Positions 4,622-4,803 of a DNA stretch of 5,414 bases are shown here, one piece after another. The stretch is from NCBI GenBank assembly GCA_900299205.1, contig OMIW01000178.1:1-5414 (forward strand). The letters run 5' to 3'. Made by a program: the position numbers and the translations under genes. The number at the start of each line of letters is the position of its first letter. Position 1 is the first letter of the stretch. The stretch is from Pseudomonadota bacterium (lineage in GTDB: Bacteria > Bdellovibrionota_C > UBA2361 > OMIW01). Under the pieces are notes generated by a model. That model did not search any database. It was not told the DNA's origin and was given only the letters and a program-made list of their open reading frames with translations.

Positions 4622-4731
4622 GGGGTTGGGAAATCTCGAGGGGTCGAGCGGTGCGGGGGGGGCTAGGGGTGTGGCAACAAAAAAGGTCCCCACAGCGAAC
4701 CCCGGGAAGCTGATACCTGGGGAGGGAGGGG
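4622..4731 (+). other. G-tract-rich non-coding stretch in the tatC-lpxD gap
   Basis: The + strand carries runs of three to eight G at 4622-4625, 4628-4630, 4640-4643, 4655-4662, 4666-4669, 4704-4706, 4719-4722, 4724-4726 and 4728-4731. The cluster around 4704-4731 satisfies a loose four-tract G-quadruplex pattern on the strand that is the template for tatC and lpxD. The matching RNA would be C-rich. I see no protein gene in the whole 4533-4803 gap. Confidence 0.5.
4679..4723 (-). terminator. Intrinsic terminator between tatC and lpxD
   Basis: On the - strand TCCCCA (4723-4718) pairs with TGGGGA (4692-4687). An inner CAGC (4712-4709) pairs with GCTG (4696-4693), with a five-base bulge on the 5' side. 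CC and then six T (4684-4679) follow directly. Stem plus U run is the classical Rho-independent form. It lies about 80-125 bases after the tatC stop and before the lpxD leader, so it would end the tatC transcript or a short RNA made from the gap. Confidence 0.65.
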
Positions 4732-4747
4732 CTGCACCAGAGGACCT
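4679..4747 (-). ncRNA. Candidate small RNA with a C-rich anti-Shine-Dalgarno-like loop
   Basis: A possible promoter (- strand TTGATT 4782-4777, 17-base spacer, CAATAT 4759-4754) predicts a start near 4747. The resulting RNA of about 69 nt begins AGGUCC, which pairs perfectly with GGACCU (4689-4684), immediately followed by the U run. Inside this stem CUGG (4740-4737) can pair with CCAG (4720-4717), holding a 16-base loop that contains CCCCUCCCUCC. CAGC/GCUG forms a second hairpin. The C-rich loop is complementary to Shine-Dalgarno sequences, as in known anti-SD small RNAs of Staphylococcus and alphaproteobacteria. It does not match tRNA, 4.5S, 6S or tmRNA signatures that I know. The -10 matches only three of six bases, so this remains a hypothesis. 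Confidence 0.3.
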
Positions 4748-4753
4748 CCCTCC
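4721..4753. other. Perfect 9-bp hairpin GGAGGGAGG / CCTCCCTCC
   Basis: GGAGGGAGG (4721-4729) and CCTCCCTCC (4745-4753) are exact inverted arms around a 15-base loop. No U run follows on either strand, so it is not a terminator alone. In a - strand transcript reading through from tatC it would form first and sequester the C-rich segment. It shares bases 4721-4723 with the downstream terminator stem, so the two structures compete at their border. Confidence 0.6.
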
Positions 4754-4803
4754 ATATTGCCGAAAATAACGATGTTAATCAAACGCCCCCAATAAAAAGC
4801 GCT

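Follow-up and report, generated by a model that had tools for sequence, protein, structure and literature searches.

The 271-base gap between tatC and lpxD in the DNA analyzed here, a stretch of 5,414 nucleotides (the window) from contig OMIW01000178.1 of a Pseudomonadota bacterium, contains what comparison with related genomes identifies as a shortened member of a previously unlisted family of small RNAs (sRNAs), which spans nearly the whole order to which this genome belongs. The element is predicted to be an independent, single-copy, trans-acting sRNA gene, the loop of which would pair with G-rich mRNA segments without Hfq, a reading to which we assign a probability of roughly 0.7. A new sRNA with a C-rich loop had been proposed at this place from the letters of the window, and the existence of such an RNA is now strongly supported: it is conserved, covarying, complete from promoter to terminator, and absent from Rfam. 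The function that was proposed along with it is plausible. According to Pfam searches, the plus strand of the window carries hemB, bioB, and greB, and the minus strand carries lpxD, the 3' part of tatC, and the gene of a response regulator; the lpxD product is represented in Pfam by hexapeptide repeats, and its gene name is that of the original prediction. The gap and the two stem segments within it occur once each in the genome, and this single occurrence rules out a repeat or mobile element.

All parts of the window copy lie on the minus strand. A -35-like hexamer, TTGATT (4777-4782), is separated by a 17-base spacer from a -10-like hexamer, CAATAT (4754-4759), the position of which matches that of the promoter in relatives. 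With seven of 12 consensus matches this promoter is as weak as it had been called, and a pattern scan did not report it. The predicted transcript of ~70-75 nt (4679-4753), delimited by a covariance model and by its position as in relatives, would start near 4747-4753. In the predicted fold, the 5' arm of a long stem (4728-4749), the counterpart of which covaries in relatives, leads into an open, C-rich apical loop of 24 bases, UCCCUCCCCAGGUAUCAGCUUCCC (4704-4727), which is the conserved part of the family. An alignment of 23 copies, together with pattern matches, defines two conserved motifs here, motif 1, CUCCCUCCCC (4719-4728), and motif 2, AGCUUCCC (4704-4711). The 3' arm of the stem (4682-4703) doubles as the stem of a Rho-independent terminator, which a terminator scan finds, with its U-run at 4679-4684. 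The segments AGGTCC (4747-4742) and GGACCT (4689-4684) pair in the fold as AGGUCC:GGACCU around the C-rich loop and close the RNA end to end. The hexamers, the spacer, these two segments, the T-run, and the closing pairing are thus all where the original prediction had placed them; what it had missed is loop motif 2, AGCUUCCC, and the CUGGGGC linker conserved in most relatives. The window copy is shortened: it has no separate terminator hairpin, and its main stem runs directly into the U-run. The same fused stem-terminator is found in one other genome (G012), and the remaining relatives have a separate terminator hairpin.

It is comparison with relatives, not the fold or the promoter of the window copy itself, that lifts this predicted sRNA above chance. 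Folded alone, the window copy has a z-score of -0.33, with 62 of 200 shuffles folding equally well, and a longer piece of it scores -0.22. A covariance model built from relatives only, with the window excluded, finds its best match in the window at 4677-4754 (minus strand) with 20.2 bits and an E-value of 7e-5, the second best reaching 7.3 bits. The loop pattern arose in six of 20,000 composition-shuffled copies of the gap, and the corresponding regular expression, applied to 1.35 Mb of sequence from relatives (both strands counted), matched at the element only.

Searching 57 genomes at the DNA level recovered no relatives of the gap, because conservation is confined to the loop. The family was found instead by synteny, using protein searches for LpxD and TatC in the 28 genomes of the order. 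The two genes are usually near neighbors, in many cases separated by a single gene of ~310-350 residues, and nearly all of the gaps before lpxD hold a TTGAC promoter, the sequence CUCCCC-N4-8-AGCUUCCC, CUGGGGC, a hairpin, and a T-run. The family architecture consists of the TTGAC promoter, a long hairpin with the apical loop UCCCUCCCC-N4-8-(UU)AGCUUCCC, the CUGGGGC linker, and a terminator hairpin. After extension by one pattern and two covariance models, a clear single copy was identified in 24 of the 28 genomes (G000, G001, G003-G008, G010, G012-G021, and G023-G027), nearly always just before lpxD. Among the other four, tatC and lpxD both lie at contig ends in G022, and neither the pattern nor the covariance models found the element in G009 or G011. 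G002 has a divergent copy 3' of tatC (L083 1179-1256, minus strand) with CUCCCUCCCC, CUGGGGCG, and a terminator, lacking GCUUCCC and with it the second loop motif, possibly a decaying or altered member.

No credible copies were found outside the order. In 17 further genomes belonging to the class, every match was either a plain terminator or a hairpin that lacked the loop, and across 382 genomes the loop pattern matched in this order only. Matches in viral contigs comprised the loop letters only, with a model match that was weak or confined to the loop, and were taken as chance. The order is presumably uncultured, since its assemblies are fragmented. In many relatives, a protein of ~320 residues without a Pfam match is encoded between tatC and the sRNA (e.g., L090 850-1815 and L089 722-1675); its gene is absent from the window. 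The gene in this interval in G008 (L101 716-2581) encodes a TMEM260-like O-mannosyltransferase.

The stem is maintained as a shape while its sequence drifts, and on this comparative evidence the family is a conserved structured RNA. Fold z-scores of the relatives range from -2.3 to -5.9, and when the loop is held open during folding, every one of 23 copies closes it with 17-33 pairs. Over the same copies, mean identity is 31% in the 5' arm vs. 75% in the loop. Across 19 aligned copies, 96.6% of the inner stem and 99.1% of the terminator stem are paired; two-sided compensatory changes occur at all eight pairs of the former and at nine of the 12 pairs of the latter. The covariation score of this alignment is 0.729, compared with 0.264 after shuffling and at most 0.18 with slid partners; the alignment was fitted to a model and is therefore biased towards the structure of that model, while the folds of individual sequences are independent of it. 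Compensatory change in the stem, on which the original prediction had staked its proposal, is accordingly present in the family, and the particular letters AGGUCC/GGACCU are specific to the window genome. In unconstrained folds of the 23 aligned copies the loop stays open nearly throughout; only in G015, G012, and G017 does it form a few short internal pairs.

Searches for known RNAs returned nothing that could account for the element. Rfam models gave no match in the window at gathering score and no credible match in the window gap at E-values up to 10, and in 18 relatives, at E-values up to 1, the only matches were to plant microRNA models inside tatC of one genome. The 6C RNA model (RF01066) matched neither the window, nor its gap, nor the 18 relatives. 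SRP RNA was ruled out, as it is encoded elsewhere in the genome, on contig C86; tRNA and tmRNA were ruled out as well, none being detected and no Rfam match being present. The literature search found no report connecting an sRNA with the tatC-lpxD gap or with the letters of the loop.

The position of the element bears on whether it is an RNA gene of its own or part of a neighboring transcript. Most copies are intergenic and have both their own promoter and their own intrinsic terminator, the window promoter being the weaker; in most relatives TTGAC[A/G/T] occupies -35, and 36-48 nt separate the end of the -10 hexamer from the loop. Wherever one contig holds both, the element precedes lpxD in the same orientation; this arrangement persists in G004, where tatC is inverted, and in G014, where tatC lies more than 6 kb away. 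This near-constant place makes a cis role worth considering, in which the element, ending as it does in a terminator, would be a riboswitch- or attenuator-like leader that controls read-through into lpxD and tunes lipid A synthesis. Such a leader is nevertheless unlikely. Attachment to lpxD is not constant: in G005 the copy (L119 1070-1196, minus strand) is flanked by two unrelated genes and adjoins neither lpxD nor tatC; it retains its promoter, loop, and terminator, and the gene that follows it has a lipoprotein-like start. The distance from the loop to the lpxD start also varies from 117 to 415 nt, with the terminator in between, and no conserved anti-terminator pairing was seen, the almost fully paired terminator stem being separate from the loop stem. 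The displaced copy in G005, with its own promoter and terminator, therefore favors an independent trans-acting RNA, and the strong, constant terminator, for which no alternative pairing was seen, makes that the better reading. The element also follows tatC in the same orientation and is genuinely shaped like a terminator, and the window fold alone is not significant, so that it could be taken as the transcription terminator of tatC, with the loop and promoter incidental. This is hardly credible, and the family already contradicts it: most relatives have another gene between tatC and the element, the element is kept in G004 where tatC is reversed, and the conserved loop, the promoter, the two hairpins, and the CUGGGGC linker would go unexplained.

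For the independent trans-acting sRNA, expression is predicted. A vegetative-type promoter would produce an RNA of ~75 nt in the window genome and ~100-150 nt in relatives, in which a long rigid stem would present an unpaired loop of 24-35 nt with two C-rich motifs, and the transcript would end at the intrinsic terminator. The loop would then base-pair with G-rich mRNA segments, often near the ribosome binding site and without Hfq, and this pairing would mostly reduce translation. A conserved open loop on a drifting stem is the pattern that would be expected of a base-pairing seed for mRNAs. Hfq (PF17209) was not detected in any of the 28 genomes of the order by a search that was positive in five of 14 control genomes, including Escherichia coli and Bacillus subtilis, and the C-rich loop probably grips G-rich mRNA stretches without this chaperone.

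Comparisons of the loop with candidate targets were less favorable to the original prediction, which had described it as an anti-Shine-Dalgarno loop and had singled out the ribosome binding site of greB. The loop is indeed conserved and unpaired. Against the start regions of three relatives, delimited by crude start calls, its mean pairing was no greater than that of shuffled loops, so that these relatives give no sign of excess pairing at start regions overall, which leaves room for individual targets. The greB start region is not supported as a target, since 200 of 500 shuffled loops paired with it equally strongly. A 12-base complement of motif 2, GGGAAGCTAAGT, had five non-self matches, scattered over unrelated places and fewer in number than those of a control pattern, and revealed no recurring target. 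Because none of these three comparisons is supportive, a repressive, mRNA-pairing function is something that we infer. The same lack of general pairing with start regions, together with the absence of detected Hfq and a loop that barely changes between families despite the drift of the stem, would suit a protein-binding or housekeeping RNA, 6S-like or a Csr-type sponge, with the loop as a protein docking site rather than an antisense seed. That role appears quite unlikely, as the 18 relatives gave no 6S or other plausible Rfam match at E-values up to 1, the loop lacks GGA, the core motif recognized by CsrA, and 6S RNA is built around a central bubble, whereas the loop here is large and apical.

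The CCCCA of loop motif 1 could form a pseudoknot with the nearly invariant CUGGGG linker that precedes the terminator. Of the three testable CCCCA/UGGGG pairs, 96.3% are standard and one two-sided change was found. The pseudoknot is unproven, because its pairs are nearly invariant and the formation of two of the five would come at the expense of the terminator. A more speculative proposal, which we consider distinctly improbable, is that of an order-wide, Hfq-free regulator in which the CUGGGG-CCCCA pseudoknot masks the seed until it is opened by a target or a protein; if true, such a switchable loop would tie the lipid A and envelope genes around lpxD into a broader network.

C-rich motifs are used for target recognition by several sRNA families. 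LhrC of Listeria and UCCC-type sRNAs of Staphylococcus employ UCCC or C-rich motifs against Shine-Dalgarno regions; these are Gram-positive families, LhrC is multicopy, and the element described here has no Rfam sequence or structure match to them. The actinobacterial 6C/B11 sRNA uses C-rich loops to pair with a G-tract in the 5' UTR and represses expression, in hosts with no identified Hfq or ProQ (PMC10470900). It resembles the lpxD-side sRNA in combining a C-rich loop with the lack of an identified chaperone, and differs in that B11 has two C-rich loops, compared with one large loop containing two C-rich motifs here. PmaR of Agrobacterium tumefaciens has a spoon-like shape supported by probing, with a long stem and one single-stranded loop containing several C-rich stretches, in which the bases CCCA are needed for target binding; it has a narrow phylogenetic range and activates most of its targets, pairing mainly away from the ribosome binding site (PMC6234868). 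The likeness, drawn from a comparison of described architectures only, extends to the long stem, the single C-rich loop, and the narrow range, whereas the host lineage is unrelated and PmaR mostly activates, in contrast to the repression suggested for the lpxD-side sRNA. Pxr of Myxococcus xanthus, a lineage-restricted sRNA from a former deltaproteobacterial group, has an essential first loop but differs in its three stem-loops and in its genomic neighbors, pxrR/Mxan_1079 (PMC5684412). The occurrence of C-rich-loop sRNAs, some of them in bacteria without identified chaperones, provides a precedent for Hfq-free loop action. The new sRNA is most likely a chaperone-independent regulator that acts like mycobacterial 6C/B11 or PmaR.

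In an order where no Hfq was detected, the family adds an uncatalogued RNA whose seed loop is defined and whose structure is supported by covariation. The way in which base-pairing sRNAs operate in Gram-negative lineages that have no Hfq thereby becomes testable, as does the question of whether 6C in actinobacteria, PmaR, and the lpxD-side sRNA represent one recurrent solution, a rigid stem that carries a large, open C-rich loop. For annotators, it supplies a gene that is currently invisible in genomes of the order.

Two features of the surrounding DNA may be mentioned. Runs of G (C on the minus strand) lie at 4650-4668, between the sRNA terminator and lpxD, where a simple scan found no promoter-like site. 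Directly 3' of the tatC stop codon, a palindrome, AAAGCGCTTT (4789-4803, minus strand), is followed by T-rich DNA and is possibly a weak, separate terminator of tatC.
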